Below, piece after piece: positions 12,586 through 51,295 of a stretch of DNA of 64,000 bases. The translations under genes were made by a program, and so were the position numbers. Position 1 is the first letter of the stretch. The number at the start of each line of letters is the position of its first letter. The stretch is from the NCBI RefSeq assembly GCF_037975245.1, contig NC_092563.1, positions 27,615,960-27,679,959 on the forward strand, written 5' to 3'. The notes beneath the pieces are model-generated. The model worked only from the letters and a program-made list of their open reading frames with translations. It searched no databases and was not told where the DNA came from. The stretch comes from Apostichopus japonicus (Eukaryota; Echinodermata; Holothuroidea; Aspidochirotida; Stichopodidae).

Positions 12586-12597
12586 GTTGATATTGAG
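12415..12597 (-). CDS. DUF1295 gene, first coding exon
   Basis: Acceptor cttgcag precedes 12597 and the donor is GTAATT at 12414. Translation is taken to start at ATG 12585-12583. It encodes a membrane helix followed by CQFDKVTDFAGGTNFVVLALF, the family's N-terminal signature. Confidence 0.85.
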
Positions 12598-15930: not shown

Positions 15931-15949
15931 GTTTATTATATAATATTAT

Positions 15950-16300
15950 AATTAGAGATATCTTTCATTTAATTCGAGATATCTGAAATTAATTTCAGAT
16001 ACCTTGAATTAAATTGAAGATATCTGTAATTATTTCAGATATCTTCAATTTAATTGATATATCAGAAATTGCATTTTCGATATCTTTAATTTTACTTAAG
16101 ATATCTCAAATTGATTTTAAGATATCAAGAAATAAATTAGAGATATTAAAAAGGGAAACATTGTATAAAATATCTCGAATTGAATTCTTCAAGATCCAAA
16201 TTGAATTCGAGATATCAAGAAAGGATTTCGAGATATCCAAGATTGAATGATATCAAAAATTCGAATTCGAGATATCCAAAATTGAACTATAGATATTTGC
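15950..16300. repeat. Degenerate 21-22 bp array of GATATC / AATT palindromes
   Basis: About sixteen GATATC-like cores (some mutated to gatatt or gatcc) occur at roughly 20-30 base steps, most close to 21-22. They alternate with AATT/GAATTC-like cores. The array sits directly between a SINE and a MITE. No coding potential; the ORF through it is a by-product of the repeat. Confidence 0.65.
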
Positions 16301-23200: not shown

Positions 23201-26200
23201 TGATATGCAACACAGACTTGGGTGTACATTGATGCCATGATGACAGATATTATTTACAAGTCTTACAGGTAGTTTTCTTTGTACATAATATCACCAAACC
23301 TGTTTTTATAGTCTCCATCTTTCAGGGCTTGGATCAAGTAAGAGGTGGGTTGATCAATTTCTGTTGTGAGATTGTAAGTCCTGCTTCTGGCATAATATAC
23401 CTTATCTCATCAGAATCTCTAATTTCCTTCTTTTATTCTGAATTAATAATGCATAGCAGAACTAACTGCACAGTAAGATTCATTTCAGTTCAATTGCCAC
23501 ACCCTGCTGTTGGTGGATACTTAACATTCATAAACTATTGCTATAACTGTCCTGTGTGTATGACTTCCTATATTGTAGATCTACCTTAGTATGTTAGATT
23601 TTAGCAGTAAAAACCTGTCAAAGTGGGGTTGGGGGGGGGGGGGGAGAGAAGAGTACCTACCGTTGTACAGCAAACTTTTTACACACTAAATTTCTACCAC
23701 CACCCAGCAATGAGTACTGGCGAAGAATGCAATACTTTCTGAGTTTGTTACAGTAAGTCCTCTACCAGTTTCCCAACTATTTTGACTGGCTGTTATCAGC
23801 TGTGATGATGATATACCTCGTGATGAGGGTACTACCGAGAATAGCTTTGACCTTGCTTATATGATAAGTACACACATATACTGTGTATTACATCCAGTTA
23901 AGTGCATTTTGATCGATAAGCTGAGAATCCAAATGACGCCTATGTCAAGACGTATAGCTCAGAAACAAATACTGTAGTTCCTCTCATACACACCTAATTA
24001 AATCTGGAGAGTGTTTATCTCCATCTAGTTTATGATATTTGCCCTCAGAGAGAGCTATGTACAGTACTGTAGCATCAAAGAATGCACCGGGGTAGTTTAA
24101 TGAATCATGTTGATTAAAAGTGTGCTCTCCTATGCACAGCTCATTTTTTCTTAAACTTTCAAGCAGTTTTCAAGCAATTTTAGAATCAGGGAAGGAGGAA
24201 GGATGTATTTGGATTCAGAAATGCATGCTATAAAATCATGTGCAGTAAGGCAAGGGTTATGTTTGTGTGAAATTTCTATATCAATATATCGCATGATAAG
24301 GAAAACTGTATGCAAAGAGTTTACTAGACCTTATACAGCTCAATATATAATTTACATTTAAATCAAGTTGAAGGGTTAATTCATTGGTGGATAAATCTTG
24401 AACAAACAAGGAGGAGGTTACTTTTCTCAGAATACATGTCTCTACTTTACTACTGCACTTTCATATCTACCTAGTTCACAATTGTCAAACTTTTGAAGTG
24501 AAAAAGATTTATACCAAACTTATGTTAACTTCAAACAAGGCCAATGCTCGTACTGTACCTTAGAATCATAATACTGTAACTGATCATTGAAATTAGTCAA
24601 AGGAAAAGCTACTCTAGCTGTCAGACAAACAAATTTTACACGTATACATGATTTAAGGGCATTTTCTTAATTGGACATACTGTACTTGACCATATCAATT
24701 GCTCGCTTCCATCATATAAAAATATCAACAAGAGCATTTTCTTTACTTCTAAGGATCAGTAACTACTTTTGTTGCATTGGTACACAAGTTTTTGGTTTCA
24801 CTTTCACCTCCCCACTCTTATAATATATCATAAAGGCAGTGCCAAATTAAAAACAGATATGGAGACTGTAGTCTATGGAAACCAGAATTAATCATGAACT
24901 CTTGTTACTCTGTGAATAATACTTATTACTCTCAAGGCAGGATGATTTTGAAACTGCCAAGAGCAAAGCCTGTGCTGTTAATTATTGCAGCACTCTGTGT
25001 AGGAAATGAGAACCACCAGTCATATCCTCCATGGGTTTTTCATAATCAAAGTCACTGTTACATTTCAAGCAAAATTGCAATCAACTGAGCAATGCACACA
25101 ACTTTACAGATCTGACCTCAATAGGGGGCTTGGTTGGAATTTTAATTTCTTATCTCTGGCAGATCTCAACAGTCCTAAAGTTATCAAATTATTGGTCACA
25201 GAATATATGTAGTAGTATTGCAACACTGTGCTGATTGATCTGTCATACATACAGTACTGTACATTGCTATGTACTGAGTAACAGTGCACTCTCAGTGTAC
25301 ATACTGTACTACAGCATTATATCGTTGGTTAGTTGATGTACTGTACATTGCTATGTACTGATTAACAGTGCACTCTCACTGTCCATACTGTACTACAGCG
25401 TTATATTGTTGGTTAGTTGATGTAGATATACTGTACATTGCTATGTACTGAGTAGCAGTGCACTCTCACTGTCCATACTGTACTACAGCAATGTATCGTT
25501 GGTTAGTATTGATATACTGTACATTGCTATGTACTGATTAACAGTGCACTCTCACTGTACATACTGTACTACAGCGTTATATCGTTGGTTAGTTGATGTA
25601 GATATACTGTACATTGCTATGTACTGAGTAGCAGTGCACTCTCACTGTCCATAATGTACTTACAGCAATATAGCGTTGGTAAGTTGCTGTAGATATACTT
25701 TACTTTGCTATGTTAACCTCCCTAATTGGCTCTCTGACTCCGACCTCGTGTATGTTTATGGCTATCTACAGTATATATACAACAGGGTTGTCCAACCTAC
25801 GGCCTGCGGGCCATAGTCCGGCCCGCCGCAGGGTTGCGTCCGGCCCGCCAGAGATGCTTGAACGGTGCGAAATTTTAGTGAGCAGATATATTGATAACAA
25901 CTTGAAGCTATATAATCAATCATTCAAACCTTCTGGGTCCAAAAAATGCATACAGGTCAGTTAATTTGTGTGGCACTCTCAGCGGAGTGGGGGGGGGGGG
26001 GGGAGAGGGGCGGTTGTACTTTATTCATCTGTTTTATCAGGAAGGTAAATAAATCAGTGCGCTCCGCGCGCAGTGCTCACATTTTATTGCCTTGGGCTTC
26101 AGTCAAAAAATCAAGCTTAGGGTTCATGCGGCCGCCTCCTTCATCATAATCATTCCATGTGGCCCTCCTCTGCAAAAGGTTGGACAACCCTGGTATACAA

Positions 26201-29200
26201 TGTAATTACTGTATATAAGACTTCATTTACCAGCAATTTTCTGCTTGAACATAGACAACTTTTCCAAGATAAAAAAGAAGTGTCTATTCTACAATTTAAA
26301 CAATCTTATTATCCTCCAGAGGACCTCTCACGAGGTCGACCAGGGGTTAAACTCCTTTTGATTTGATTTAAGTAACAGTGCACTGTCACTGTACATACTG
26401 TGCTACAGCAATATATTGTTCGTTAGTTTCTGACAAAGCCAGTTATGCATGGATGGAGATGATCTATGCTGAATATGGATTCCAATTTTTTTCTGCGGGT
26501 GTACAAACCACCATCAATGCCAAAGATGATAATCAGTGAAAAGATATTTTAACTTTTACTGGGTGTTGGGTCATCTGTATATATGTTAGAAAATGTACAC
26601 TTGCTTCCTTCTTGGTTGGTATGATAATTTACCTTTTTTCAGGCAAAAATTTCAGCAGATCTTGGTTGAGGGTAGGGATGGGTGGTTTTTGGGTCAAAGG
26701 GTGGGTTATTAGCCCGGCCATTATGGGTGGGGAAAGGTAGGAAAGTCGTGGCAGGGGAAGGTCCAGAACTCCAGAACAGGGGCAGGTTTTTTTTGTTCTC
26801 TTCGTATTTGTTTGGTTCTTGTTTAGAACATATTTTTGTATGTTTTCATTGTTAAGTATAGGGAGTGCTCTACTTGTTAAGCCATAAAGGTTTTTCAAGA
26901 GCACTTCCTTTCACAACTCTTTGTATTTTTGTTACTTTATATGTGCTTATTATTATCACCTGAATGTTGTGATAAAACAAATGAATGAAATGAAAATAAA
27001 TGAAATAATGAGCAAATAGGGTGTAATTTGTCTATGGTAATATACTGTTGCTTACAAGAGCAATTCTATATTGCAGAGTGACATCTCAATTTACCTCTAA
27101 GTGGAACAATTACAATTTCATTACCAGTGGTGTCTGGCTGTAAAAAATTTGATTTTAATTAAAGTTTGTCATTTTGGAAAAAATGGAGCAATACCTCCAT
27201 ATATATTTCACTGTTTCACCGTGTCAGGAAAATGAAAACAAAACAGTAGAATGCCACAGCAAGCTGCTTTAGAATTCAGCACATATCAATACGTGGCAGA
27301 AGGAGAGGGTGCTTGAGGGAGTGATTTTCCTCTGTCTGACAGACTGTCATGTATCATTTTGTATAATATTAGTATCATGATTTCCATATACACTTATCAT
27401 ACATACAGTAGTGTAGTGTTTGAGGAAAAGATAAATTTTACATCTTGTTTGTGTTTGTCGTCTTCACTCTCGTCCAGCTATTTGTCATTTTGCCTGAGCC
27501 CTGTCTTCGTTCCAGCCAATGATTCATGATGACTATGTTTAATTGAATACAGTTAGCAACTATTACTTACAAATATAGTTTGAAGTCAGTAAATTTTACT
27601 TCGCTCCTCGCTTACCTGTCTCCCCACATCCTTGGCAACCTCGTTCTACCTAGAATGAACTTTTAACTTTTAACACTGTACTCTAGTACATATTGTTTTA
27701 CAATTCAGTTAAATGTGTGCCTATTTCTTTTATTACCTGGCAGCTTCAATTTTAAAGTCATCCCATCAGTGACAACTGTCAGGCAGTTAACGCAAGCCCA
27801 GACCTCGGAAGCCCTTCGTCCGTTCTTGTTTGCAGTTCATCCAGACTTCTTTGGAAAGTACCCAAAGGAAAGGGTAGGTACAGGTGTAGTGAAGGATGAA
27901 AGTGACATGTTTTTAGGTGCACATTCAATACTGTTCCTCTGTGTAATACAAAGAATGCATTATACAGTAGCTTGGTGTGTAATAACAGTTGTTGTTCACG
28001 ACAAGACATTATCTTTTGTGAGACAGTCTTTTATTTAAGTTTCTTACCTGTCTCATGAAAACAATTCCACCCCCCCCCCTGCCGTACTTCAATGTCTGGA
28101 GTGATCTGGTAACCTTTTACACTGACCTGCCCCTTTTGACAAAGGGTACAGTTGTTGTGAGGAGGCAGGTAAGTGTGGAGCTCATAAATATCCAAACCAG
28201 GTAAGTTTTGGAAATTGAGACATACGCATATGGAATGTTGTGCTTGCAACTCTGTACACTGCAGCAGGTTGGTGTCTGCTGATTAACAATTTTTACAGCA
28301 CCCTGTGGAATTTGTGTCCTTCTCCGTCAACAAAAATCCGATCTGTTAAGTGTCATCAATTGCCATGTACATGGAGTACTTTACGACATTATCATTTTGT
28401 ATGTTCAAAAGATTCTTGTCACAAGTAGAGTTTTAATGTTGGTGGACGTAAGGAAATAACTGACATCCCTTCTTTGTTTCTGTACAGGCAATCAATGAAC
28501 ACTCACTGAAACAACTCTTTGCATATATAGATGGCTTAAAGCAGCGAGGCAATGTCTCACCGACTCACTTGACCTTTTACCTTCGAAACCAACAACATAA
28601 GGAACCAGAAAAGCCCCCAGCAGAACAACCCAAACCCACAGGTATAGACTGTTTGTTGTATAGTGTTATTATTCCTTAGGACAGTAATGTTAAACTTGAA
28701 ATATCTGCAAGAGTTCTGTTGAGTATATATCCCAGCAAATTAAGTTTTGTTTGTTGAGCCTGGCATGTCTGGTGTGTTTAGCTGTCCCTCAAAACATCAA
28801 AAGATTTTATTATCTTAGAAGCATTGTGATAGTGTTGTCTTATTTGTTGATATTATTATTTCATCTGTTGGATTTATTGACAATAATCATATAGTCTATC
28901 ATTATCTCCTCTGTTTTACATAGCATGTAATTTTTAATTGTTCTTCAATCACAAAAGCAAGAAAAGTCAAAGTTCTACTCAAGAACATTGCTTGATAACA
29001 GAGTGAACTATGGTATAGTGTAAGGTAAAGTATGACAATTAAAGGATCATTGTACCTGAATAAATAACCAAAAGGGCAAACTAATAATATGACGAGGATA
29101 AATAGGAAAACATGAACTTGTAGAGAGTTCGAGTCCAAGTCTTGTGTACTTAGTTTTAAAATTTGTAATATCTTTACCACTGTCTTCCAGTTTCAGTTAT

Positions 29201-32200
29201 AATTTTTGTTAAAAGTAAAGAAACAGAGGAACCAGTCATGTGTGTTAATTTGTCTTGTCATTTTGGGGTATTCTGTTCCTTCTAGATTTCTGTGCATTTT
29301 AAGTGACAAAAAGGGTAAATTGAGTATAATTTGGTGTATACTCTACTGTAGCCTATTTCCACCTAAACCTACCAGTATACAGGTATCTGCACCTAAAGGA
29401 ATCAGTCGGTATGTGATTGGTTTGTTATATAACACAGTAAAAATCATCTTTTACCAATAAGGAGGAAAAACATATGATCGACTTACCCAAAAGTTGATGC
29501 AGCCATGTAAAGACAACTCAGTGAGGTATTATTTGCCAAAACAAATGTCTCTACCTGAGTTACAAACATTGAGTTCGGTTTGGTAACTGTTGCTATCTGT
29601 GAAAGAGTCGGTTTTGCCATTTGAAGCAAAAGTAAATAGTGTTTGTGGTCTGTGTTGATTATTTTTGAGTTTACCTCATTTTATCCATTTAAATTTAGTT
29701 TCAGTTGTCGTACCCTTCGGTACCATTGACATTAATTTCACAGTGTGTTTCTCAGCAGAATCGGTTCCTTCTTTATCGCATAGACTATTTTAAGCACTTA
29801 GCTAAGATGTTTCTCTGTGTCAGTACTCTCATTCCTGGGTCCTTTTTGCCTGCAGGTTACATTTCTCAGTTTGTAAGCATTTCCAAGAAACAATTCACTA
29901 AATAAACAACCTTTCATTCATTCTTTAGAACCAACGCCCCCGAGAGCCGTCAATATCTCTCTTCTCGGCAATGACATCTTCAGCACTGTCAGCCATGTTT
30001 TGAAGTCATGTGACATATCGACCAATCACGTGAAGCAAAGCTCGTCTCCGCATCATGATTTTTATCGACCCATCGAATGGCACCACACATATTACACATA
30101 CACCGCCAAGAGAAATCCATTTGAAGGTTACCCTCCATCAAAACCAGATGTCACTTTGAGGTAATTCAGAACTCTGAAAATTACCCAGACTTTTTTCGTT
30201 TGAAGAAAATTACAGTTTGGTTTTGTGGAGAATAATGGTAGGCACTGGTGCAGAGGTTTTTATGTGGACTTATTTTGATTGATAAACTTCCCTTTTTCGT
30301 AGGTTGTAAGAAATGACGAGCACATGTTACTGTGTTGTTATTTGAGTTATATCCCTCGATTGTGAAGAAATGCACGAAGGGAGGTTTGTTAATTAATAGT
30401 GGAATTCTCGTGGTAAACCACTATCCTATTTGAAATAAAATAAGTGAAACCGGGTTTCCTTACAAGTTTTTGGAAGGCTAAACCAATGGGTCACAAACGT
30501 ATGTCAAATTTGAGCAAAATCTGGATAAAAGATGAAGTTACACATCATAAGTAATTTTCAGTCCATATTCATCAATAAAAGAATGCAAAGGTATATTCAA
30601 TTTTAAATTTACAAAAAAAATCATTAATTTTTGACCTAATAAGAAAGGCAGAAGTTACTTGGTGTAAACACTAGAAAGGACACACTAGTTGGCACCTTTG
30701 GGAAGTGTCCAAACAGAGTTGTGGTCATATATATAGCTCCTTTGGTGACATAAAAAATCATTGGTATAGGAGTTGGAATGTAAGTCTTGGTCATATATTT
30801 ATTGAAATGACTTGTGTATTTAATTTTTAACATGAAATTGAGACCTTACCGACTCACTCTCAAAGATGATCATTTTTTTTTTTATCATGAAAAAAGAATC
30901 ACGTATTAATGTTGTGAAGTTTCGGACATGGAAAGTTTCTGAGTTCTAGGTAGTGGAAGGAACAATAGAAATATGTCAAAATAATACTTTATTATCAACA
31001 ATTTACATTGTTTATGCAAGAGCTTGACCATCATCTGACTTTATGCAAACCATCTACAAAGGTACTTCATTTGAGGTTCTCTGTCAAAGTTAACTAGTCT
31101 CTTACCCTTAATCTTGACTTTGTGGTAAGTTCTAGGACACCATTTGCTTTTCATTTTCTTTTCTTTATTATTCTCAATTTGAGAGTTTGTCTCTTAAAGT
31201 TTACAGCATGTAGCATTTGAGGTTGGAATACGTGCTGGAAGCAGTTATCACTTTCTAAAAGCTTCGTCCATTTCATATCTGAACTCTGTTATCAGGCTAT
31301 TAATTGCTATTGAACAAGTTTACAGGTGGCCTCTCAGCAGTTAAATCTTTGAAGTAGTAAAAATTGTATTCCTTTATTACAAAGAATCCTGTCAACTAGA
31401 TTGAATATCTTCTACTTTTAATATAAGTTACTAAGAACTCATGATGATGTTCCTTCAGAATGAGTGATTCCACACAGGAAAAGGTTTTAATTCTCTGTAA
31501 CCAAATGTCATCATTGCCTACAAGTGACATATTGCAATTTTTTAATCAATTCTGCATTGTACGTCATTTCCACAAATTAGAAGCTTGCAGAGGGTAGAAA
31601 AACATGGGGAAGATTCATCACGTCATGGGTTTTGTTTTTGTTTTTTATAGAAATAGCTTCCAAAAAGCTTCGTAAAAGTATTTTCATCAAGAGAGGGATA
31701 TTACTTCTTAAGTTTAACGTGAAACATTAATGTCAACATTAGATGCATGTCAATCCATCTACATCCTGGATTTGATGGTCTCCTTAAATCACTGTCAAGT
31801 TTGACGAATTGCTTATTTGGGGGGAGGTTGATGGGTACGAAGCAAACCACAGAGCTAAATATGAGAGACCTATTGATAATGCTCAGGAGGTGTATTTCAT
31901 TTTCATATTCCCTAAACATTAATCACCAGGGGTTTTGTTTACATCACAAAAGATGCCCTCCAGAATGAAATTGCATGTTTTCAAATTTACATAAAAGTTT
32001 TGGGGGGAAAGGTGGTAAGACAGAATTAATAAATCTCAAGTGAATGAAAATTATGTTGGTATGTCTGTTACAGTGCTATTAAAGATTTCATGGTAGATTC
32101 ACCCTTACATAGGTACAGTTAATACTGGCAGTTTACTGGAGAGTTAACATGTTTGAAGTTAATAACTCAGTGTTGATGCTGTAATCGGAATCTAAACACT

Positions 32201-35200
32201 ACCTGTGTATTTTCTTGCAGATTGCAACAGTAAATCCACTTCTTTGGTTTCTTCCCAGTATATTACAAGTTGCTTCACATCTGATGGAGTGACTTGTACA
32301 AGAGGTCTTTTCCTTAACTTGTTACTTTTTTTTCCGTTCGCTTCAGATATTTCTTGAGAAGGAACATCCCAAAAGCGAGGAAGCATCTCCATCTCAGCAG
32401 TCAATGCAGAGATGAAGCTCAGAGTCACGAGAAACGGCTCATCACAAACCTTCAACTTTGCAACATCAGCTGGCAGTCCAGTTGGAACGTCAGTGCTTAC
32501 AGGACATGCTTGAAGGCATTGGACAGACTCTGCCAATCTAACAAATCAGTCGCTGAAAACCTTAAAGGTAAGACTGAAAGTCAGAGCGTGCAGGACATGC
32601 TTGAAGGCATTGGACAGACTCTGCCAATTTAACAAAACAGTCACTGAGAACCTTAAAGGTAAGACTGAAAGTCAGAGCATGCAGGACATGCTTGAAGGCA
32701 TTGGACAGACTCTGCCAATCTAACAAAACAGTCGCTGAGAACCTTAAAGGTAAGACAAAAAGTCAGTGAATACAGGACATGCTTGAAGGCATTGGACAGA
32801 CTCTGCCAATTTAACAAAACAGTCGCTGAGAACCGTAAAGGCAAGACTGAAAGTCAGTGCATACAGGACATGCTTGAAGGCATTGGACAGACTCTGCCAA
32901 TCTAACAAAACAGTCACTGAGAACCTTAAAGGTAAGACTAAAAGTCAGTGCATACAGGACATGCTTGAAGGCATTGGACAGACTCTGCCAATCTAACAAA
33001 ACAGTCACTGAGAACCTTAAAGGTAAGACTGAAAGTCAGAGCATGCAGGACATGCTTGAAGGCATTGGAAAGACTCTGCCAATCTAACAAATCAGTCGCT
33101 GAGAACCTTAAAGGCAAGACTGAAAGTCAGTGAATACAGGACATGCTTGAAGGCATTGGACAGACTCTGCCAATCTAACAAAACAGTCACTGAGAACCTT
33201 AAAGGTAAGACTGAAAGTCAGAGCGTGCAGGACATGCTTGGAAGCATTGGACAGACTCTGCCAATCTAACAAATCAGTCGCTGAGAACCGTAAAGGTAAG
33301 ACTAAAAGTCAGTGCGTACAGGACATGCTTGAAGGCATTGGACAGACTCTGCCAATCTAACAAAACTGTTGCTGAGAACCTTAAAGGTAAGACTGAAAGT
33401 CAGTGCATACAGGACATGCTTGAAGGCATTGGACAGACTCTGCCAATCTAACAAAACAGTCGCTGAGAACCTTAATGTTCCATCAGGGACAGTGATGAGA
33501 GGAGGCAAGTGCTGGGGGGGGGAGAGAAATGGCCAGGGGGTTTAATTAAAATTATTTATATCGTGAGGTCATAGCTTAAAGCATTTTACCAAGATACCCT
33601 TCGCATAATTTACAGATAATTTACATATAATTATATTAGCTCCTCCTCCATTGGGGATGTTACCTCACATATCAGATGTGGTGCAAGAAATAAAACATGC
33701 AACATTCTGAGAACCGCATAGTTGCAGACGAGACTCCGCCCGAAAGAGCATCACTTGCAGTTTTAAGATGTTTGATGATTTCATAGCTGATGCAGTGCCT
33801 TATTCCTTCTTATAATCAGGACGCCATGTTGTTTTTGGCAACCGTTCCATGCTGGGGTGTGACGGAAGCATCCGTTTAAGTAGCGAAGATGTTCCTCAGC
33901 AGTGGCAAATGGTATGTGATATTTGATTCATTTGTTCAGTGCACCCTATGATATGTATATTACCAGCTGTTGATTCTATCTCCTCCTTTGTAGATGTAGT
34001 CCCACCTCTTAGACCCTTGTACACTTGCTTGATGTGTTTGTGTGTAATGAAACAGGCAATCTTGATCCAGGGTTTTACATCATTCCTTTATTTAATGGTG
34101 ATGATCTTGTAATCGTGTCGGCTATGAATTCTACAGAGCAGAATATTCAAAACAGCTGGTTGTGTATCGTTACTATAACAACCTGTTCACTTGATAAGTG
34201 AATCCTGGTTCTTCGACTCTAAAATCATGCTTCACATAAGTATTATCTTTGTGCTCACTAATGGTGCAGTCAGCTGATTATCCGTTATCTGGAAGCCATA
34301 TACACTGACCAGAATCTTATCTGCAAATAAAGTTAGATCTATCCAACCATATCCTAGCAGGTAAAATAACCTGTGTCTCTTTCCTGATATGAAGCCTCTA
34401 TAGGGACACTCACACAATAAACCAACATGTCTTTGTTTTATTGCTAGAAATGTCAGGCATTGTTTGCTGCAGGATTTACAACCAGCTGCTTTAAATATTG
34501 TTATTTTTTTTTTTTTTTTTGGCTTAAAACTATTATCATGTTCAGATTTTAACATATGAGTGAAATTTATGAAAAGTTAACTGTCATGGGGTGGCGGGTG
34601 GGCGGGGACACACTCATTTAGTTATGTGAGCAAAGTAACCATTTTATCTTGGCTGGAAATATTTGCTGATGTGAACTATCCTGGAGAAGCATGTTACTAA
34701 TAGTCTTCTTGCTCACTTTTCACTTTTGATTTGAGAATGTCACCACCTCCAAACCTAATTGTGTGCTCAGAACATCGTCATTTCTTATTGAAATTACTCT
34801 TGATATCAGTCTAAAGAAACTCTGATGTGTTGTTGTCAAGTAAGAAAGCAGCATGCGGAGCATTATCGAAATATGAAACGTTCTTTGAAGTGTTCAAAAC
34901 TAGGGATAGTAACCATCCACATTGGCAAATAGTTTTTTTTTTTTCAAAGCTTCAGTCTGAATTTATGACAGCTGTACAGCTTTAATCTGGTTAGTACCAC
35001 GGATGAATATTAGAAGGAAAGATAATAATGTACCTCGAAAAACCAAAATCGCTCAAGGAAAGGTGAACAGTTTGGCATCACATTGAAGGGTGTTGAAACA
35101 ATGCCCCCCAAAAAATTACTTGAAATTTGTGGGACACAAAATATTTACTATGGTATATTCAAATGGCTGTAACCCATCATTGACTTATTTTGGGACCCCT

Positions 35201-38200
35201 ATCTGAATGTACGTCTCAGTGAGCATAAATCAAAGTTCCTATCCAGTGTAATTAGTGGATGAGTTTTAGAAAGAATCGGCTAGAGTATTTCCATCATTAC
35301 TATCATTACATCACCGAATGGTGAATATGAAATCTACTACTCGCTTGTGAAAATTTTTGACCTGAGACGTAATTGATTCTGATCTTGTGCTGCGATCAGC
35401 TTGCCGTCATCAATTCTCTCTGAGGCGGCGATTGGGAGTTGTTTCAATAAGAAAGACATTTTTGTAATTTGGAGAATATACAATTGGGCTGGTTGTTTTG
35501 CATAAAGTTTACAAGATAATCTGAATTAAAATAAGACATTAACATTGGTTAGTTTTACTGTAGCAGGGTTGAAGAAATAAATCATTATAAAGAAGAACAT
35601 GTATAATTTTGCTTGAAATCAGACCAGTTTTCATGACAAGCACCAACTTTTCCCTATCTTCTCATGTTTTTGCTTTCACGATTTGTATAACCCATTGTTG
35701 GTTACGTTTTTTTTTATTTTGTTTTCTTAATGTCAAGGCGTAGAATTCAGGCACATCTTTGGTAAATTTAACAAATGTTACATTATGATAATAATCATTT
35801 TAGGAATATGTATTTGCCGACATTTGTTAGACATAATTTCATGAAAGATAAAATATTACACTAAGATGAAAAGAAAGCATTTTAGAACAGACTACCCATA
35901 TATTTGTCAAAAAAAGGAGGTTTTTTGTGCACCTGAGCTATATTCTTTCAGTGCTCGGGAGTATGGACTAAGCCTCGAGGGGCTGGAGGAGTATTCACAT
36001 CTCGAGGGCACTTACGGCCATCAGCCTGCGAAACGTCAGTCGGATGATCGGTTGAGCAAGACTCATTCATCGCCAGCAGCTCTTATCAAGAACATCATCT
36101 CTGTCGGAGACAGGTGGCCTCACCTAATCTTAAACATTTTAACCAACAACGTGTGCTTAGAGGAGAATACACATCCATCAAACTTCATGAGTAGTCTTGC
36201 CTAAGTACTTCTATCAATTGCCTTAGAATCATTCTCTTTCTGTCTATATCGATAATAATAATGATTTTTATTATGAATATTATTTTTATTATTATTATTA
36301 TTAATATGGTAAAGGCAGCCTGCCGTCATCTCGTTGCATCATTAATGATAAAACAACAAACTCCTTTCTTGAACGTGCCACAAATTACGTTAGAGGTGAT
36401 CCTCCCGTTAACATAAGAAAGGGAGATAGTTTTGATATCTTTTTTTGTCAGTAAATTTTTTAATATTGGCTTTTTGCATGTATGATGGTACATTGAATGC
36501 ATCGGGTGTGCTTAGCAGGGTGGATGGATGGCTTTTCATTGTTCCCTGCTTCTCTTTCTTTGTATGACTTATAATCTCCTTAATATGCAAATCGACAATT
36601 TGTGAATAAATATGACTTATGAAAATGTACTGTGGAGTTGACCTTCTCGTGGAAAAAAAAAAATTAAAGTCGTTTTCAAAATTCTTTGGTGGTTTGAAGT
36701 GTTGTTCAACGCACATTTGTTAATGTTTCCTAAGATGGGTATTGGTGTGAGAGGGGGGGGGTCTTACATTCAGAAATAAGATGATGACATTACTTACAAG
36801 CAAAATATCAACCTTGGACAAGTCTCTTCATTTAGTTTGAAATGGTGTAACGTTTCACGTTTGAGGCTCATGTAGGTGGGGGGGGTGGGGGTGGGCTGGT
36901 GGGTAATGTATAACTAAGTGCGGCTACGTATCTGTCTGTGGGTGCCTTTTGATATTATCACTCTTGCTCTACCCTGCACCTCAAACAATGCAAAGCAATT
37001 TCAATTCCAGCGGGACAGACAGACAAAAAACAACATTTCAATTACATTTTCATGACTTTATGAAGATAGTATGACCTTTCTGAAATCTGAACCATTTCTT
37101 ATCATAGTAGGGCTTTTCTTCTGTTTGCTGCCTAACTGTAAGTAAGGAGGACTTCCAAGCAGTGTAGTGCGTTTCATGGGTTGTAGCATTTTGGTGCACG
37201 TTGTTGCTTTTTCACTAACATGAACGAAACAACTCTGACACTGCTTACACTACACAGCTCTTTGCAATTTCTGTGCTTTTCATAACATGTCAACAAGAAA
37301 TACATTTTCATAACCTGGGATAAAAACACAGCTTCAGCAAGATACTTGAAAAAATCAATGGTTATAATATTCAGACTGTTGGACTTGTTGACATGATATT
37401 GTGTAGTCTTCACTTTCCAACGGATTTAAAATTTGTCTAAAACTGTATTTGAGATAATGAACTTTTTGACAAGTCTTTGGGAGAATGTTTCATCACACTT
37501 TGATAGCCGTTTCAGAGAGAGGCAAAACTAACTTCATACCGAATACTCCCTCTATTGGCTCAGCAATCTTGGAATCTAGATCTTAGGCATCATTATAACA
37601 TGAAGGACTTCCCTAACAAAGTTTTCCAAATATATCTTTAGCTACAGGGGGGGGGGGGGTAAGTTGGTGGGTAAGTTGGTAGGGTAAGTGAAGGGTTGTT
37701 GGAGGATGTGTTAATTTATTAGAAGGGCTTTCCTGACTATCAATACAAATGCTGATAGCTAGACAGTTTGTACTAGTTTGTAGTTTGTATGTTCTTTGGA
37801 AAAAACTGTGTTTTGGTAATAACCTTTAGACAGATACTAGTCAAAGCTAAGAGTAACTAATAAAATATGTCAAGTCGTCTTTACTTGCTTTCTCATGTTC
37901 TAATAATTTGAGTATCCTGTCCACTTTATCGTGCATGTTGTCTTCATTAATCATTTCCCATTAAACTAACCAGTGTTCCTTTTCACACACAGTTCCTCTC
38001 GACCCTTCCCCGGTGGTTGACGATGCTCGACGAGGTGGCTCTTCTGGAGGAGCATTTCTCAAAATTGCTGGGAGGTTGCCGGGTGGACAAGTCGGATCCC
38101 ATACTCTCCAGAACTCCGGTGGAGGAACATTGCCAGTGTCTGCAAAAAGTCATCTCGTCCATCCAAAGATACTACCACACGAGACACGGCAAGCAACAAG

Positions 38201-41200
38201 CCATCAGAATCCCTCCGGGCAGGTTAAAGGAAGTCAGGGTAACACTTTACAAGTAAGTCAAATGTCAGACAAATTATGTGAGGATGATGTGCATGTAAGC
38301 TGCCGCAGACTATAATGTAGACCTCCATAGGAATACCAATTCTTGAAAGTCAATCTTTGTTCCTTGCAGAGTTGGAAAACCTTCCTTTTTTTTCTTCTTT
38401 TTTTTTGGGGGGGGGGAGGGGGCTAGTCCCAAGACCAACTTCCCACAAGTTTGGGGCTTAATAGAAAACCCAGCACTTGTGTGATATGTAAGAGTACTTT
38501 GAAAGGAAAAGAAAATTTGAAACACTGTAAATGATTTACTTTGGGGGGGGGGGATACTTCCAGTCTTTTTTCTCCATTTGTTTCATTTTCATTATTATTT
38601 TTCAATCAGAGTGGTTTCATGCGAACCTTGATCCAATGGTTTTGCTAGATTTTCCAAGCTGGTTTCTGTGAGGAGCCCAAAATAAATCTTTTAATTGAAT
38701 TTTCTTGGGTCTACAATTGTACAAGAGTGGTTGCATAATAGTCAATTGAGTGTATTTGATCGTAACTTGAATATTTTAGTAGATTTAATAGCGGTTGTTA
38801 TTAATTTCTGATTCAAAAGTAGCAAGCCATTATCAGGATTCATGACACAAAGCAAAACTTTACCAAAAGTATTTTGTAATATGTGTCACTTAAGTTCAAA
38901 CATACTGTTGTGTCTTTTGTAGCCAAAACAATTAGTGATTGCTCAGGGTACCCTGGTTCCAAAATCACCACCCGGTTTAATAAAAATCGGCAAAAAAGAA
39001 ATTGCCGTAGGAGACCATGTTCAAAACATAAGTCTTAAATTCGTAATGAAGCAAGTTAAGTTTGGTACTACAGTAAGTCCGACACTCAGTAATCGATTAT
39101 AACAATAGTTGTCATGTATTTTGTCAGCACCAAGCGTTATCTTAACTTGTTAATCTGATGTCATGTCAAGTCAAAAATGATTTCGCACATGATTGAATAG
39201 TACGTAGATAGTCAGCCGTGCCATTATTGCTTTGTGTCACTTGTTATTGTTGGGTTATGTATAGTGTGCGAGGGGTACAGGTATATCTTAACAGCCTAAT
39301 ATAATGTTAGACTGTAGTACTAGTAGGCTACTACTTAGGCGGTCAGGACAGGGTTCCAATGTTATTACGGCGCAGCTTGTAAAAAGTCGGGTAACCGACG
39401 GGTAATGCATGTCGGGTACCCGGGAAGTGCGAAATTTGTACCCTGTGTAAACACTACAAACCATTGAAGGTATGTGAATACACTTCAAAGCATGAAGTTC
39501 ATTGGTCAGTTGTTAACAGTCATAAAATATGCTGGAGAAAATGCAACAAAAGTTGTGGCTATGACTTGAAAAAGATTCGGGCAAAGAAATTTCCCAGTTT
39601 TGTTTATTTATTGACTTGTACTAATCATACAAATATGAAAATAAATGCTAACAGCCAAATTTTAATAGGAAATCTGCTAGGTTAATAGCGTAAAGCTATG
39701 AGCCAAAATGAATTAAGCCTCAAAATGTGACAAAGTGCTACAGTTAAGGAGAAGAACAGGGCGTATCATGAAAATATAACAGCAGTTATTGCCTAAGCGA
39801 TGTTGTAAAGCGCCAACCTAATGAGTTCTATAAAATTCCAGTAGTCAATTTATGTCATGATACGTGACGAAACGGTACAAAACCGGTGAGAGGCAGTTAG
39901 CATCTTGTAAATTATTAAACAGAACCGTTATGATATAACTAACACTGTTAGGTAATGAATAGCATTAAATCCTCTAACTTCTCTATATGAATAACCACAG
40001 CAGCTTACACAGTTGGTTATATACAATGATAAGATTTATTAGTTACAGAAATTGTGTTAGGTTGTGAAGTAGTTCATAATATTCTGCCAATATAGAGAGC
40101 ACAGTTTTCGTACTGTGATTTGGTCAATGCTTACGACTGGCAGGGGAGTGGGGGGGGGGGTTATTTGTTGGAAACATAAAGTTTCATATGTGTAAGGCAT
40201 TGAAGACAGTACAAGCATTCAGAATACTTGAATATCTCCCCCCTCCCACACTCACCCCATCATATTGCCCCCTAGCTTTCATGCATTCTATGGGGTTGGG
40301 ATCTGATTGGCTGTTGTTCAATCCACATGGAAGATCCTGGGTCATGGGATTAAAAATTGCTGTTCTAAGTAGTGCGTGGCAGTTATGAAATACATATTTT
40401 AGGAGTTTGTGAGAACCTTTGCATTTGTAATGTTTCCGTTTTGGCACAGACTGAACCTGGCTGCTTGTTACTTTCTTTTTCAGTAGTTTCAAATGATGTT
40501 TCCTTAATATGTCTCCCTTTCTATGTTGTTTGTATAAACAAACCATGAAATATTAGGTCAATGAATGTAAGGTAAGGTATTGAGCTTTTCAAAAGGAAGT
40601 TGGATCTAAAAATATCAAATAGTTTCTGTAGCATCCTACATCTTCGTGTTGTTAATGTAAAGCGAATATGTTATGGGTGTGAAGGAAATGAAAGTTCTCA
40701 ATTAAGTGGGAAGTAAGGTCACATGACATTCATCACCAATTGTTATTTCTTGTCCTTGACTATCAACAAAAAACAAAAGAGTTACCTTTGAAACCGAAAG
40801 AACAGCACTCTGTGAAAGGAAATATAATCAAATGTTTACGTTGCCAGTGATTTGCTTTGACTTTCGTAATAACATTTAAGAAAACACCATACAACAGTGG
40901 CCTCTGTTAACATTATACTCCCACTTCTTGCAATGGTTAAATGGGATAGTGCAACAGTATTGAGGAGGTAGGTTAGTGTTGAGAATTTAAACCAATAAGA
41001 CCAGTGCATTGTGGGTAACTTGTGGGGGTGGCATCTTACATTTGATGTTTTTAGCATGGTGGTAGAGTGTATGAAATCAACACTACTGTTTTATGTTTAC
41101 TGTTGACGGGAAATAATTTCCGTTTTCTGTTTTCTGAAATGGACAATAAAGTTTCTATCTATCTACCTATCATTAGTTACAGATATCTTCTGATAGTAAT

Positions 41201-44200
41201 TGTCACTAGTTTATAGTTCAGTGTGTCTAGATACAGTAGTAAGGTAACCCTATTCATTGGAATTCACTAAACTCAGATAAACTGTTCTAGTAATAGTAAT
41301 GTCAACTTCAAAATATTGATTAATAAGTCCCATTTCATTGACAAATTTTCAAATTATTGTAACCTTCTGCGATCCACTTATCAACATTGGGTAGTAAGGG
41401 AATGGGGAGGGGCAGGGGAGGGGAGGGGTGTATATTATCTTTGATCTGTTACAATCCTGTATGTGATAAACCCCTTAATATATCAGTATATCACAAAGAA
41501 ATGGACAAACCTTAATTTGCTTCTCTTCTCATTCCACAGCCATTCTCGAATACTGGACATCAGTGACTTTGGACTGATACAAATCGGAGTCCAAAGTAAT
41601 CCCGAAGACATCGTTCACTTTCTGATGGACCGGGGGGTAACTGCTCGTGAAATGAGAAAACAGAAGGAATGGTGAGACACATGTTTGTCATGTCTAAGAA
41701 ACGAATTGTTTTAAATATTTCTTGTAAACATGATCCCAAATTGGTCTCAGTCATGTTTCTGATAAGATTGTTCCTTTTTACATTTTTTACTTTTTACATT
41801 GTTCCTGTTTATCAAAGAAATGACATAATTTAAGCTATTTATATCATTTCATATCTGTTGTAGGTTGTCTTGGTATTTACGTTGTTGTTGTGTGGTAATG
41901 TATATCTTTCAGTCTGTGTGAACCATCTTGGGAGAAAAGGCAGAGATATTAAAAAGAAAGTAGGGCACAAGGTGTTTCAGTGAAAGCAAAAAATGTTTAC
42001 GATTACAGAATAAATGTAATTCCATTCAAAGAAATGAAAATACTCTTTAGTTTACTTGGAAAAAAAAATCAAAAATTGCTGCACAGGTATGCATTTTGTA
42101 AAACTGGGCTTTTTTGTGCACAGCATCTGGCTGTGAGAGACAAGATCAATTATTCTTTGCAAGAAAAGTTAGTTGCATTCAATTTTGGTTTTTCACAGTT
42201 TGCTTATATGAGGGATCCATGAACAGTTGTCGTTGCAATGGATAAAACAAGTTTATTCAAATTCTTGCAGTCACTAGCTTTGATTATGTTCACAATTCAT
42301 TGAGCTGATGGTATTGCCTAGTGGGTAAACTAATCTGTTTAGGGTAGTCTCCCTGATAATTATGGTATGGGAAGGATTCAGTGTTCTAATAAATCAATTG
42401 TAGTTTATTGTGTAAAGTTATTGTGATTATATCTAAACATTGAACTACTTGTCAATACAATTAATGCTGTCATGGTTGCATGACCTTTGCTTGCTTCAAT
42501 TAATTGTCAGCTACCATAGGAGTGTCCCTCGGGAGCAGTCCCCTCACCTTCCCCACCCCCATCCACAGGATAGAATATATGGAACATGTGTTCCAGTTCA
42601 CTCGACAATTTTATTTTACTGTTAAAAGATGATATGCTGGAATAAAAACCCATTGCCCAATGGTTCCTCTAGATTAGCAGATTGTAAAGGCAGCAAAAAA
42701 TACAACAACAAAAATGATAAAGACATGTGATATAAAATAGTGCCAATGTATCAATGTAAAGTCAGCCTAAACAACAACAAAAAACACCCACCATGTTTCT
42801 AATGGCATTTCCTAAGATCAATTGTAAACATCTTATTAAGCTTTTTATATTAAACCTATATGGTGATTTGTAACAAAGTGAATGTCTAAAAAAATAGGTT
42901 TTAGGTTTATTAAGGTGCTGAATTATAATTTATTATGGTGTTTTTATGTCATGTGTGAGCTGTCTTACATACCAAGGAACAAGTCAATGTTTTGTGGAAC
43001 ATGTGTATTGTACTCAGTAATCATCCAGTGAGCGAAACAATAGATTGCATTGTTATTGTTTGTTATAGGTCAAAGGTTTGTCATCCAGGTGAATGCATTG
43101 TTTGTTTTCACTATCTCATGTATCTTCATCTTGATAATGACTTTGTTTGTTCTTAGTCTGATTCAGTATTAAAGTTTCATGTTGAGGGTAAAAGGAGACT
43201 GAAATTGTTGAATCTTAATGTGAAAAAGAATTCACCACAAAGTAGAGAATTTGTGAATATTTGTAAAATCCCTTCTGCATGGGAACTTTCCTCGTTAAGT
43301 AAATTTCAGGGCTGCATGGTGCATAACTTCTGATAATATAACAATGAAAATCTGTACACTTTTAGGATTCCCAGAGTTCTGTACACTTTAAGGATTCCCG
43401 GAGTTCTGTACACTTTAAGGATTCCCAGAGTTCTGTACACTTCAAGGATTCCCAGAGTTCTGTACACTTCAAGGATTCCCAGAGTTCTGTACACTTTAAG
43501 GATTCCGAAGTTCTGTACACTTTAAGGATTCCCGGAGTTCTGTACACTTTAAGGATTGCCGGAGTTCTGTACACTTTAAGGATTCCCGGAGTTCTGTACA
43601 CTTTAAGGATTCCCGGAGTTCTGTACACTTTAAGGATTCCCGGAGTTCTGTACACTTTAAGGATTCCCGGAGTTCTGTACACTTTAAGGATTCCCGGAGT
43701 TCTGTACACTTTAAGGATTCCCGGAGTTCTGTAAACTTTAAGGATTCCCGGAGTTCTGTACACTTTAAGGATTCCCGGAGTTCTGTACACTTTAAGGATT
43801 GCCGGAGTTCTGTAAACTTTAAGGATTCCCGGAGTTCTGTACACTTTAAGGATTCCCGGAGTTCTGTAAACTTTAAGGATTCCCGGAGTTCTGTAAACTT
43901 TAAGGATTCCCGGAGTTCTGTAAACTTTAAGGATTCCCGGAGTTCTGTACACTTTAAGGATTCCCGGAGTTCTGTAAACTTTAAGGATTCCCGGAGTTCT
44001 GTACACTTTAAGGATTCCCGGAGTTCTGTACACTTTAAGGATTCCCGGAGTTCTGTACACTTTAAGGATTCCCAAAGTTCTTGCTAGTTTGATATTCATC
44101 CCCCTTTCGTCAATGTTTCAAACATTTACCGTTAAGAAGAAGTAGAACCAACAAGAACATCCTTGTTTTACAGTCCTTCATTTTGAATTCTTTACTGGGT

Positions 44201-45046
44201 AGTACTGCTGCTTTAATGTGTGGTTGTTATTCTTTTCCAATTTTTCAATTTGACAGATTGGTTAATCAACTTATAATGAAGGCTTATCTCGATTGTGTTT
44301 GCCTGTTTTTCTCAAAGTTCCTGTGCTTTGCTTGTGACTTGTTAATTTTCATTCCCACCAATTAATGTGATGTGCTTCAACGCTTCATAAATCAAGTATG
44401 GTATTGTGATGTTAAATATCAACAGTGCGTTATTAAGTCGGGTAGCTCTGCCAGTTGTTTCACGATAATATCCTTTCTAACTGATTCAAGAAACGGAAAG
44501 ACAAGTGATATACCGATACTTTAGTTGGGGGAATCCTGACAAAAGCGATGAAATTGTCTACATCATTATTTAAAGTGATATACCGATACCTTGGTTGGGA
44601 ATCCTGACAAAAGCGATGAAATTGTGTACATCATTACTTAAAGGGGAAGTGACCCCAAGTTGCTAATATTATCAAACCATTTCATTGGGTGTTTTCTTGG
44701 CATTCCAAAATGTTCTTTCACATCTAGGTTTGTGTAATTCTAATATCGGCTGGTCGGTGGTGTTACTCTGTTTAACAGATTTTTTTTTCATTCATGATAT
44801 TTAAATTTCAGGGACGTTAAAGCTGAGGAAGACATCTGCCGGAATTGTCAAGAGGAGCTAGATCTATCGAGCCTCACCAAGGATATAACCATCACCACCG
44901 AACAGATGATAAGCTGTTGTACTCGAATCACCAGGAACCCCTTGGCCCTGGGGGTCACTATGAACGACCTTCGGCTACATGTCACAAAGTACTTCTCCGT
45001 CCTCAAAGATGGCGAGATATGTCTTCCTTGGGATTGGAAAGAGTGA
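20173..45046 (+). CDS. TCAIM: TCAIM orthologue: mitochondrial J-domain-like protein, complete CDS in nine exons
   Basis: Coding exons: 20173-20231, 27744-27873, 28488-28641, 29929-30160, 32347-32567, 33820-33911, 37993-38252, 41540-41671 and 44812-45046. All introns are GT-AG and every split codon reads correctly, giving 504 residues (human TCAIM is about 496). The N-terminus (MFTRVLSNLSRSQ) is Arg/Ser-rich without acids, as in a mitochondrial presequence. Residues 41-63 contain SEALRPFLFAVHPDFFG, the DUF4460 signature with an HPD tripeptide (52-54). The middle and C-terminal parts match DUF4461, including LQLCNISWQSSW, ISFxxLLGG-like spacing, KYFSVLKDGEICLPWDW and a stop after Lys-Glu. In vertebrates TCAIM is a mitochondrial protein linked to restraint of T-cell activation. 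An invertebrate copy implies an older mitochondrial, probably co-chaperone, role. Introns carry three separate tandem arrays. Confidence 0.93.
20232..25240. other. TCAIM intron 1, first part
   Basis: AT-rich intronic DNA. It contains a three-copy, roughly 40-base repeat (taacagtaagagctatgctatt) at 22598-22706 and a poly-G run of 14 at 23631-23644. No further exon recognised. Confidence 0.4.
22598..22706. repeat. Three-copy ~40 bp tandem repeat
   Basis: The segment 'taacagtaagagctatgctatta' or a close variant is seen three times in a row with short AT-rich spacers. Confidence 0.6.
25257..25712. repeat. 84-90 bp minisatellite in TCAIM intron 1
   Basis: The segment ctgtacattgctatgtactg recurs at 25257, 25341, 25431, 25517 and 25607, with a decayed sixth start near 25696. 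Each is followed by acagtgcactctcactgt, a tactgtactacagc block and tcgttggttagtt. The array resumes with one partial unit at about 26371-26435. Confidence 0.9.
25717..26346. mobile_element. Possible TTAA-bounded element splitting the minisatellite
   Basis: TTAA at 25713-25716 and 26347-26350 flank the block. The inner ends, TTAACCTCC...CGACCTCGTG on the left and reverse-complement TTAACCCC...CGACCTCGTG on the right, share short stretches. The block separates minisatellite unit 6 from its remaining part at 26371. Ends are only partly matched. Confidence 0.35.
25783..26192. mobile_element. Non-autonomous hAT element
   Basis: Left end CAGGGTTGTCCAACCTacgg and right end ...aggttggacaaccctg are inverted repeats of 16 bases. 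The flanking octamers atatacaa (25775-25782) and gtatacaa (26193-26200) match at seven of eight positions, fitting the 8 bp target duplication of hAT elements. GC-rich 'cggcctgcgggcc'-type subterminal sequence is also hAT-like. 410 bases, no transposase. Confidence 0.88.
26371..26435. repeat. Detached partial unit of the TCAIM intron 1 minisatellite
   Basis: agtaacagtgcactgtcactgtacatactg... and ...gttcgttagttt continue the unit interrupted near 25712, so the intervening 660 bases are an insertion. Confidence 0.75.
26640..27010. other. Possible retroelement 3' end in TCAIM intron 1
   Basis: A segment ending tgttgtgataaaacaaatgaatgaaatg followed by an (aaatga)n-like tail resembles the 3' terminus of a non-LTR element. 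No ORF supports this. Confidence 0.2.
27744..27873 (+). CDS. TCAIM: TCAIM exon 2 (HPD motif)
   Basis: Acceptor ttacctggcag, donor GTAGGT. It encodes FNFKVIPSVTTVRQLTQ and then SEALRPFLFAVHPDFFGKYP. This is the best conserved part of the N-terminal domain. Confidence 0.92.
28488..28641 (+). CDS. TCAIM: TCAIM exon 3
   Basis: Acceptor tttctgtacag, donor GTATAG. It encodes AINEHSLKQLFAYIDGLKQR and THLTFYLRN, then a Pro/Glu/Lys-rich linker. Matches the INENSLKRL...PTQLTFYVR region of vertebrate TCAIM. Confidence 0.92.
29929..30160 (+). CDS. TCAIM: TCAIM exon 4
   Basis: Acceptor cattctttag, donor GTAATT. It encodes PPRAVNISLLGNDIFSTVSH, VLKSCDIS, then RPIEWHHTYYTYTAKRNPFE, aligning with the RPIKWDKSYYSFTG block of the family. 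Ends in phase 2. Confidence 0.9.
30161..32346. other. TCAIM intron 4, nothing recognised
   Basis: AT-rich, without exons, arrays or transposon ends that I can support. Confidence 0.4.
32347..32567 (+). CDS. TCAIM: TCAIM exon 5; its 3' end is the first unit of a 91 bp array
   Basis: Acceptor ccgttcgcttcag. The first base completes an Arg codon. It encodes YFLRRNIPKARKHLHLSSQ, EKRLITNLQLCNISWQSSWN, and ends KSVAENLKG at AAAG|GTAAGA. From about 32489 the sequence is unit 1 of the tandem array that follows. Only this first donor keeps the frame: read-through meets TAA within unit 2. Confidence 0.9.
32489..33475 (+). repeat. 11-copy 91 bp tandem array duplicating the TCAIM exon 5 / intron junction
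   Basis: The segment ggacatgcttgaaggcattg recurs at 32502, 32593, 32684, 32775, 32866, 32957, 33048, 33139, 33230, 33321 and 33412 (one copy has ggaagc), exactly 91 bases apart. Units 1-10 each end with the exon-terminal AAAG followed by a donor: GTAAGA in eight and GCAAGA in two (units 4 and 7). Unit 11 is cut short (ccttaatgttcc). The uniform period with few substitutions indicates recent expansion. Confidence 0.97.
33820..33911 (+). CDS. TCAIM: TCAIM exon 6
   Basis: Acceptor cttataatcag, donor GTATGT. It encodes RHVVFGNRSMLGCDGSIRLS, then EDVPQQWQM, matching the IIFTDRSGM...WTK block. Ends in phase 0. Confidence 0.9.
33912..37992. other. TCAIM intron 6
   Basis: Contains the orphan exon-like ORF at 35952-36113, an (ATA/ATT)n microsatellite at about 36250-36305, and a poly-G run of 13 at 37647-37659. 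Otherwise AT-rich and featureless. Confidence 0.4.
35952..36113 (+). other. Orphan exon-like ORF inside TCAIM intron 6
   Basis: A GC-richer 162-base block in AT-rich intron, bounded by acceptor ctatattctttcag and a weak donor (acag|gtggcc). One frame is open: REYGLSLEGLEEYSHLEGTY, then KRQSDDRLSKTHSSPAALIK, then NIISVGD. It does not match TCAIM. In the phase required by exons 6 and 7 (0/0) it contains a TGA, so inclusion would truncate the protein. I do not recognise a family. It may be a poison exon, a nested-gene exon or chance. Confidence 0.3.
37993..38252 (+). CDS. TCAIM: TCAIM exon 7
   Basis: Acceptor tttcacacacag, donor GTAAGT at 38253. It encodes FLSTLPRWLTMLDEVALLEE, HFSKLLGGCRVD, and CQCLQKVISSIQRYY through GRLKEVRVTLY. 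Matches the DLQRRLMILEDQISYLLGG region of the family. Confidence 0.92.
38253..41539. other. TCAIM intron 7
   Basis: Several G-runs (38405-38545, 40150). A retroelement-like 3' tail is listed separately at 41108-41171. No exon recognised. Confidence 0.35.
41108..41171 (+). mobile_element. Retroelement-like 3' tail with (TATC)n
   Basis: The segment ending acaataaagtttctatctatctacctatc has a poly(A)-signal-like AATAAA followed by a tetranucleotide tail, as at the 3' ends of some LINE/SINE families. The 5' part is not recognisable. Confidence 0.3.
41540..41671 (+). CDS. TCAIM: TCAIM exon 8
   Basis: Acceptor ctcattccacag; the first base completes AA|C (Asn). It encodes HSRILDISDFGLIQIGVQSN, then FLMDRGVTAREMRKQKE, aligning with LGHFNIP...KAQQARENMKRKE of vertebrate TCAIM. 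Donor GTGAGA. Confidence 0.92.
43358..44086. repeat. 27 bp minisatellite, ~27 copies, in TCAIM intron 8
   Basis: The unit aaggattcccggagttctg + tacacttt is repeated about 27 times with few substitutions (c/a at 'tacac/taaac', 'ccc/gcc') and one shortened unit near 43500. The 27-base period is a multiple of three, so an uninterrupted minus-strand frame of 9-residue repeats (VYRTPGILK) results. There is no sign that it is a gene. Confidence 0.95.
44502..44645. repeat. Two-copy 70 bp direct repeat
   Basis: agtgatataccgatac...gggaatcctgacaaaagcgatg is present at 44504 and 44574, with the same order of sub-blocks. Confidence 0.85.
44812..45046 (+). CDS. TCAIM: TCAIM last exon
   Basis: Acceptor taaatttcag; the first base completes TG|G (Trp). 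It encodes an acidic linker, ITITTEQMISCCTRI, LRLHVTKYFSVLKDGEICLP, WDWKE and TGA. The FSVxxDGxxCxPWxWK ending is the family's C-terminal hallmark. Confidence 0.95.
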
Positions 45047-49315: not shown

Positions 49316-49615
49316 TAGACCTGTCTGTGCCCGGCTGAACCTGTCTGTGCCCGGCTCGACCTGTCTGACTGGCTCGACCTGCCTGTGCCCGGCTGGACCT
49401 GCCTGTGACCGGCTGGACCTGTCTGTGCCCGGCTGGACCTGTCTGTACCCGGCTGGACCTGTCTGTGCCCGGCTGGACCTGTCTGCCCGGCTGTTTCCCG
49501 GCTGTACCTGTCTGTGCCCGGCTGGGTCTGGGTGTGCCCGGCTGGGTCTGGGTGTGCCCGGCTGGACCCGGCTCGAACCGTCTGTACATGGCTCGAACCG
49601 TCTGTACCTGACATT
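49316..49615. repeat. 20 bp GC-rich minisatellite
   Basis: About fifteen copies of a unit cccggctggacctgtctgtg with variants (ctcgacc, tgggtctggg). 60 bases equal three units and 20 codons, so several long overlapping ORFs appear on both strands; these are artefacts. Much more GC-rich than its surroundings. Confidence 0.92.
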
Positions 49616-50999: not shown

Positions 51000-51295
51000 G
51001 ACACTGGTGTTTCACCGCTGCTGTTACTACTTTCATGAAAGACACCAGTGTTTCACCGCCGCTGTTACTATTATCATGAAGGAACCAGTGTTTAACTGCT
51101 GCTGTTAATACTTTCATGAAAGGTACCTGTGTTTCACCACTGCTGTTACTTACTACTTTCATGATAGTCACCGGTGTTTCACCACTGATGTTACTACTTT
51201 GATGAAAAACACCGGCGTTTCACAACTGCTGTTACTACTTTCATGAAACACACCAGTGTTTCACCACTGCTGTTGCTACTTTCATGAAAGTCCCT
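51000..51295. repeat. ~40 bp minisatellite (tttcaccgctgctgttacta)
   Basis: Seven imperfect units of about 40-41 bases: gtgtttcaccgctgctg, then ttactactttcatgaaa, then a variable acaccag segment. Confidence 0.88.

Follow-up and report, generated by a model that had tools for sequence, protein, structure and literature searches.

We consider it likely that the 91-bp tandem array described here is an intragenic minisatellite that was seeded across the end of exon 5 of a TCAIM-like gene together with its splice donor, and that it is tolerated rather than selected, the first donor (donor 1) making the normal mRNA. The array lies within a window of 64 kb, by which the whole stretch of DNA analysed is meant.

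TRF placed the array at 32485–33475 on the + strand with a period of 91, 10.9 copies, 93% matches, 0% indels and a score of 1716. Throughout the window the 10-base core GACATGCTTG was found at 11 sites, every spacing being exactly 91. The units were read in the register 32486 + 91n, in which the donor hexamer occupies columns 83–88 of the unit, as follows.

32486..32576, + strand: unit 1, 82 bp exonic (coding) and 9 bp intronic, with donor 1 at the junction; sole donor for the full product
32577..33395, + strand: units 2 to 10, with one extra donor per unit
After positions 32658, 32749, 32840 (GC), 32931, 33022, 33113 (GC), 33204, 33295 and 33386, + strand: extra donors 2 to 10
33396..33475, + strand: unit 11, ending at CCTTAA, no donor

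GTAAGA, within AAAGGTAAGA, occupied columns 83–88 in eight units (1, 2, 3, 5, 6, 8, 9 and 10) and GCAAGA, within AAAGGCAAGA, in units 4 and 7. Across the whole window AAAGGTAAGA occurred eight times on the + strand, a number equal to that of the GT units, and once on the - strand. The match of unit 11 ends after CCTTAA at 33475 so that this unit is without a donor. Both TRF and the register and spacing of the units describe a head-to-tail arrangement whose 91-bp unit falls within the range of about 10–100 bp that defines a minisatellite. No copies of the unit were detected elsewhere in the window by blastn at an E-value of 0.1, none of the 14 pairs of inverted repeats of at least 20 nt between 27000 and 46000 had an arm inside the array, and Rfam gave no match at the gathering threshold.

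The original prediction was that a 91-bp unit had been copied 11 times across an exon/intron junction, donor included, and that ten donors (eight GTAAGA and two GCAAGA) resulted; the 10.9 copies reported by TRF and the counts obtained in register bear this out. The array that was predicted to start at 32489 is real, its start being nearer to 32485. The identical local context ascribed to the donors holds for the donor core and fails outside of it, as CCGTAAAG stands upstream in units 4 and 9 and ACAA downstream in unit 3. By inspection, the donor also lies inside a near-palindrome, ACCTTAAAGGT, at 32559–32569 and equivalent positions, with a possible 4-bp hairpin that is weakened by ACCG in units 4 and 9. 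Small donor hairpins of this type were present in the fold of units 2–11.

The gene that hosts the array was modelled from Pfam pieces, the ORF list and splice signals read by eye. Three-frame reading of the + strand between 26001 and 41001 returned pieces of DUF4460 followed in order by pieces of DUF4461, a pair of domains that we take to denote TCAIM. Exon numbers 2 to 9 presume one exon upstream of 27744, as the model begins without a start-codon exon, and the number given to the array-bearing exon 5 is accordingly a likely one.

27744..27873, + strand: coding exon stretch, exon 2 (DUF4460 profile 3–33; splice signals, joined frame)
28488..28641, + strand: coding exon 3 (DUF4460 profile 32–77; joined frame)
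29929..30160, + strand: coding exon 4 (by eye from the ORF list and splice signals; joined product reaches DUF4460 109)
32347..32567, + strand: coding exon 5, 221 nt, ending inside unit 1 in phase 1 (DUF4461 profile 5–80)
32568..33819, + strand: intron 5 from donor 1, 1252 nt, containing units 2–11
32630..32632, + strand: premature TAA in unit 2, reached via donors 2–10 or a retained intron
33820..33911, + strand: coding exon 6, 92 nt (DUF4461 profile 77–110, matched from 33816 on and carrying on directly after donor 1)
37993..38252, + strand: coding exon 7, 260 nt (DUF4461 profile 107–185)
41540..41671, + strand: coding exon 8, 132 nt (selected visually using ORFs and splice signals; joined product)
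44812..45046, + strand: last exon 9, coding part with stop (selected visually using ORFs and splice signals; joined product)

Exon 5 is bordered by the acceptor TTCGCTTCAG and the donor TAAAG|GTAAGA, while intron 5 ends in the acceptor TTATTCCTTCTTATAATCAG|GA with a pyrimidine share of 0.75. The modelled gene has eight exon stretches of 92–260 nt and seven introns of 614–4081 nt. Joined via donor 1, exons 2 to 9 form a single open frame of 484 aa that ends with the stop codon at 45044–45046 (+). In this product DUF4460 was matched over 3–109 of 110 profile positions (88.0 bits, E 5.4e-25) and DUF4461 over 2–308 of 308 (252.9 bits, E 8.2e-75), so the two domains follow each other across nearly the whole protein as in the TCAIM family. 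Identification of the gene as TCAIM in the original prediction agrees with these almost end-to-end matches. The gene appears TCAIM-like and looks intact when donor 1 only is used.

Several other repeats were observed in and around the gene. The intron before the last exon holds 27 copies of a 27-bp unit (43351–44081, 96% matches) with long ORFs on both strands on account of 27 being a multiple of three; a Pfam match of this array to CDKN3 (40.5 bits), in which no individual stretch passed, is probably an artefact of the repetition. At 25255–25713, some 2 kb upstream of where the mapped exons begin, a 90-bp unit is present in 5.2 copies, a 176-bp period matching better. Further arrays were located at 15949–16286 (units of about 21, 41 and 81 bp, rich in GATATC and AATT), 49318–49610 (a G+C-rich 20-bp array, GACCTGTCTGTGCCCGGCTG, with a longer period of 129 bp in A+T-rich surroundings), 50992–51290 (41/127 bp) and 57619–57847 (115 bp). 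A neighbouring gene on the - strand at 10553–12672 carries DUF1295 pieces at 10553–10978 (E 3.6e-23) and 12388–12672 (E 0.0032, under the Pfam cut-off).

The choice of donor decides the fate of the reading frame. Donor 1 (32567|32568) joins exon 5 to 33820 with DUF4461 uninterrupted (G|GA). All nine extra donors, as modelled, lead to the same TAA at 32630–32632, with the junctions of exons 6, 7, 8 and 9 all downstream of it. Splicing through donor 2 gives a product of 266 aa of the modelled stretch in which DUF4461 is reduced to 2–80 (53.2 bits), and from the stop it is 26 nt to the end of the exon and 510 nt to the last mapped junction (26+92+260+132). As this stop lies far ahead of the last junction, NMD is expected for the donor 2 transcript, and NMD of extra-donor transcripts in general would be expected from the modelled frames. 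The pattern known from unproductive splicing, an alternative donor leading to a premature stop well before a junction, was thus seen for nine of the nine extra donors. Three earlier claims were upheld at this point: that unit 2 contains an in-frame stop, that the first donor alone yields full-length protein, frame and DUF4461 being continuous only with donor 1, and that the nine later donors would yield truncated products.

Donor strength was evaluated as computed U1 duplex energy. Donor 1 and the seven extra GT donors all scored -9.5 kcal/mol and both GC donors (units 4 and 7) -4.8. For the remaining six mapped donors the values ranged from -5.6 to -11.1, making donor 1 the second best of seven, on a scale that is crude in that CAA|GTAAGT of exon 7 gets only -5.6. 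Among the 4015 + strand GT sites in the window, 35, the array's own counted, had energies of -9.5 or better; within 26001–45046 outside of the array it was 12 of 1247. The seven extra GT donors further share the 82 nt exon-derived context of donor 1 with few base differences. Units 2–11 fold better than shuffled sequence (z -4.33, 20 shuffles), which is partly expected of repeats, and the predicted accessibility of donor 1 was inside the range of donors 2–10 at all three window sizes; RNA structure was consequently dropped as a discriminator of donor 1. Local signals cannot tell donor 1 from the seven extra GT donors. The donors differ in position, that is in exon length (221 nt with donor 1 vs 312–1040 nt with the extra donors), in intron length (1252 nt vs 433–1161 nt) and in order of transcription.

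Equal U1 pairing and near-equal context of the seven extra GT donors are what would be expected if the array acted as a splicing rheostat, in which competition from the nine extra donors would send a share of transcripts that depends on copy number into NMD and thereby fix the level of TCAIM output, be it neutrally or adaptively. The single stop that serves all nine, placed 510 nt ahead of the last mapped junction in the case of donor 2, fits this as well, as does the turnover suggested by units only 1 base in 91 apart. Against it, two of the extra donors are GC with the weaker pairing of -4.8, exons of 312–1040 nt are needed and donor conservation does not rise above background. We regard such a rheostat as unlikely. 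Its stronger form, that a fast-mutating minisatellite of 5' splice sites sets the NMD loss such that individuals differ by copy number, would be a long shot.

Conservation was evaluated by comparing the donor with the remainder of the unit. In units 2–11, 34 of the 899 cells were off consensus, and conservation of the donor 9-mer above background was not detected in these units (2 deviations vs 3.06 expected, small numbers). Over all units one of the nine donor columns was variable vs 17 of 82 elsewhere, and 49 of the 83 nine-column windows had as few variable columns as the donor. In this weak test on small numbers there is no visible sign of selection either to keep or to remove the extra donors. 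Since a working upstream copy is retained, a duplication across the donor may be tolerated. A random 91-mer placed within 27744–45046 spans one of the seven donors with a probability of 0.037 (200,000 draws). With 30 TRF rows in the 64-kb window, overlapping rows counted, one donor-spanning array in a gene this rich in repeats would not be very unlikely.

All 11 units differ from one another, by 1.1% to 11% in pairwise comparison, the closest being a single base in 91 apart. Units 2–11 differed among themselves by 6.0% on average and from unit 1 by 7.4%. Units 5, 6, 8 and 11 are at a mutual distance of 1.1–2.5%, and distances from unit 9 reach 11%. That all units are distinct argues against an assembly artefact, in which the array or its copy number would be wrong; arrays of this type are hard to assemble, yet we judge this explanation very improbable. 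Differences between copies are likewise one of three lines of evidence for the potato duplication (PMC4974935). That the array exists is more certain than exactly how many copies it holds.

The left edge of unit 1 has GAA(C/A)GTCAG in common with the other units, which suggests that the segment first duplicated probably extended from exon position 32485 or so to around 32575, the eighth base of the intron, chance matching at the joint amounting to a few bases at most. At columns 3 and 72, where unit 1 carries C and A, units 2–11 all carry A and G. These shared columns, together with the 6.0% vs 7.4% distances, indicate that it was probably an early copy, rather than unit 1 time and again, that gave rise to the later ones. 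To the right of the array the sequence is without match to the unit, and the stretch of intron that originally followed the donor is apparently lost.

The same mean differences show that the array is not brand new and that turnover has probably gone on. The recent expansion that had been proposed is consequently supported in part, by the units a single base in 91 apart, the average divergence of the array speaking against it. In a four-gamete test on units 2–10, from which the cut unit 11 and the coding unit 1 were omitted, 30 of the 45 informative column pairs failed. Such failures would be expected under exchange among units, and recurrent CpG mutation could supply some of them. A higher-order pattern of units was not evident, lag means of 4.55–6.77% showing no usable trend (9 pairs at lag 1, 1 pair at lag 9).

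The AAAG that precedes each donor bears on a further alternative, Rogers-type or ratchet splicing, in which donor 1 would be spliced to a later AAAG, removing whole 91-nt units and rebuilding the donor, either stepwise or as repair. AAAG|GT is present in eight units and AAAG|GC in two, spaced 91, and the AG|GT of the Rogers model is thus found in the array. According to PMC4974935, tandem copies of AGGT are a widely cited model of intron creation that includes a 24-bp case in fission yeast. The duplicated segment of that model is wholly exonic, whereas the unit in our gene model spans an existing exon/intron junction. The pyrimidine share is only 0.44–0.56 before the ten AAAG sites of the units, and the best share among the 98 AGs of the array was 0.56 vs 0.75–0.94 in seven of the eight mapped acceptors, the acceptor of exon 9 being at 0.56 as well and so equal to the best array AG. 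Since the array AGs are without a pyrimidine tract, stepwise splicing through the array is unlikely, and splicing of the Rogers type as a whole is most improbable.

Two polyadenylation-type hexamers, ATTAAA at 33545 and AATAAA at 33689, are located in the TCAIM-like intron downstream of the donor array. U1 is known to protect transcripts against early polyadenylation, which is termed telescripting, and the downstream units could in this manner bind U1 and shield the intron. Strong computed U1 pairing of eight GT donors, all upstream of both hexamers in the same intron, is consistent with such a role. However, hexamers of this kind would be expected by chance in A+T-rich introns and the donors are not conserved beyond background, and we find the proposal hardly credible.

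The reading that we favour, a tolerated minisatellite, draws on the observed anatomy, frame and stop position, the equal U1 pairing of the GT donors and the absence of conservation above background in the donors, from which we infer splice choice, NMD, neutrality and turnover of copy number. A chance duplication spanning the end of exon 5 and its 5' splice site would have seeded the array, which would then have grown within the intron through unequal exchange or slippage. Donor 1 would give the normal mRNA because its 221-nt exon is defined first, the extra donors needing exons of 312–1040 nt. Occasional use of an extra donor would lead to the premature TAA in unit 2 and removal of the transcript by NMD. 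The array would accordingly be tolerated because exon definition would prefer donor 1 and NMD would clear errors. Exon definition is expected to apply where exons are short and introns long, here 92–260 nt vs 614–4081 nt. PMC2809761 argues that new introns with weak splicing are protected by NMD against selection; by analogy, NMD could shelter the present array in the same way.

A counterpoint to the tolerated minisatellite is that misuse of the extra donors could be both frequent and costly, given their equal U1 pairing, context and accessibility. Among equal donors the one nearest to the downstream acceptor can be favoured. In DOK7, SRSF1 shifts donor choice toward the site proximal to the downstream acceptor (PMC5585400).

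Tandem duplications that carry splice signals have been described for ATP2A1, Drosophila cases and potato RdRp, and they can likewise alter splicing (PMC4974935, PMC2891723). The potato RdRp duplication also crosses an intron/exon border, of the other kind (PMC4974935). Unlike these cases, the array in the TCAIM-like gene copies the donor side of an existing intron about ten times inside the old intron, and no new intron is predicted. In fission yeast, a multi-copy 24-bp AGGT duplication of which several copies are crossed by an intron (Zhu and Niu 2013, cited in PMC4974935) similarly involves a short AG|GT segment amplified in tandem and splicing over copies. There, a 24-bp exonic unit gave a new intron, whereas here a 91-bp exon-plus-donor unit lies in an existing one. 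Intronic repeats of earthworm metallothionein genes (PMC12783039) are also intron minisatellites, comparable to the 10.9 copies of 91 bp with signs of exchange found here; unlike them, the TCAIM-like unit includes a coding exon end and splice donor. Intron 4 of DOK7 resembles the present case in having competing donors of which one alone leads to full-length protein, here as predicted from the sequence, and differs from it in that two unlike donors stand 11 nt apart rather than ten near-identical donors 91 nt apart (PMC5585400).

No description of an amplified exon-donor junction of this kind was found among the titles and abstract openings listed from the open-access literature, which is weak evidence for novelty, and no paper on an invertebrate TCAIM gene was present by title among the matches listed in that literature. 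Searches for relatives covered viral and prokaryotic collections and are uninformative on animal relatives. In these, a 40-base unit pattern had 0 exact matches in viral contigs, and the 312-aa part encoded by exons 5 to 9 had one pattern stretch in viral contigs and 16 in prokaryotic genome contigs, 0 of which were confirmed by tblastn.

Tandem duplication across exon borders is already known. With its ladder of ten near-identical donors in near-identical exon context, at 91-nt steps behind one intact exon, the array constitutes an unusually clean natural test of the choice between equal 5' splice sites, in which the deciding factor may be proximity to the upstream acceptor (exon definition), proximity to the downstream acceptor or order of transcription. 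If the extra donors are used, the dose of what is presumably a mitochondrial protein would be under direct control of the number of repeat copies.
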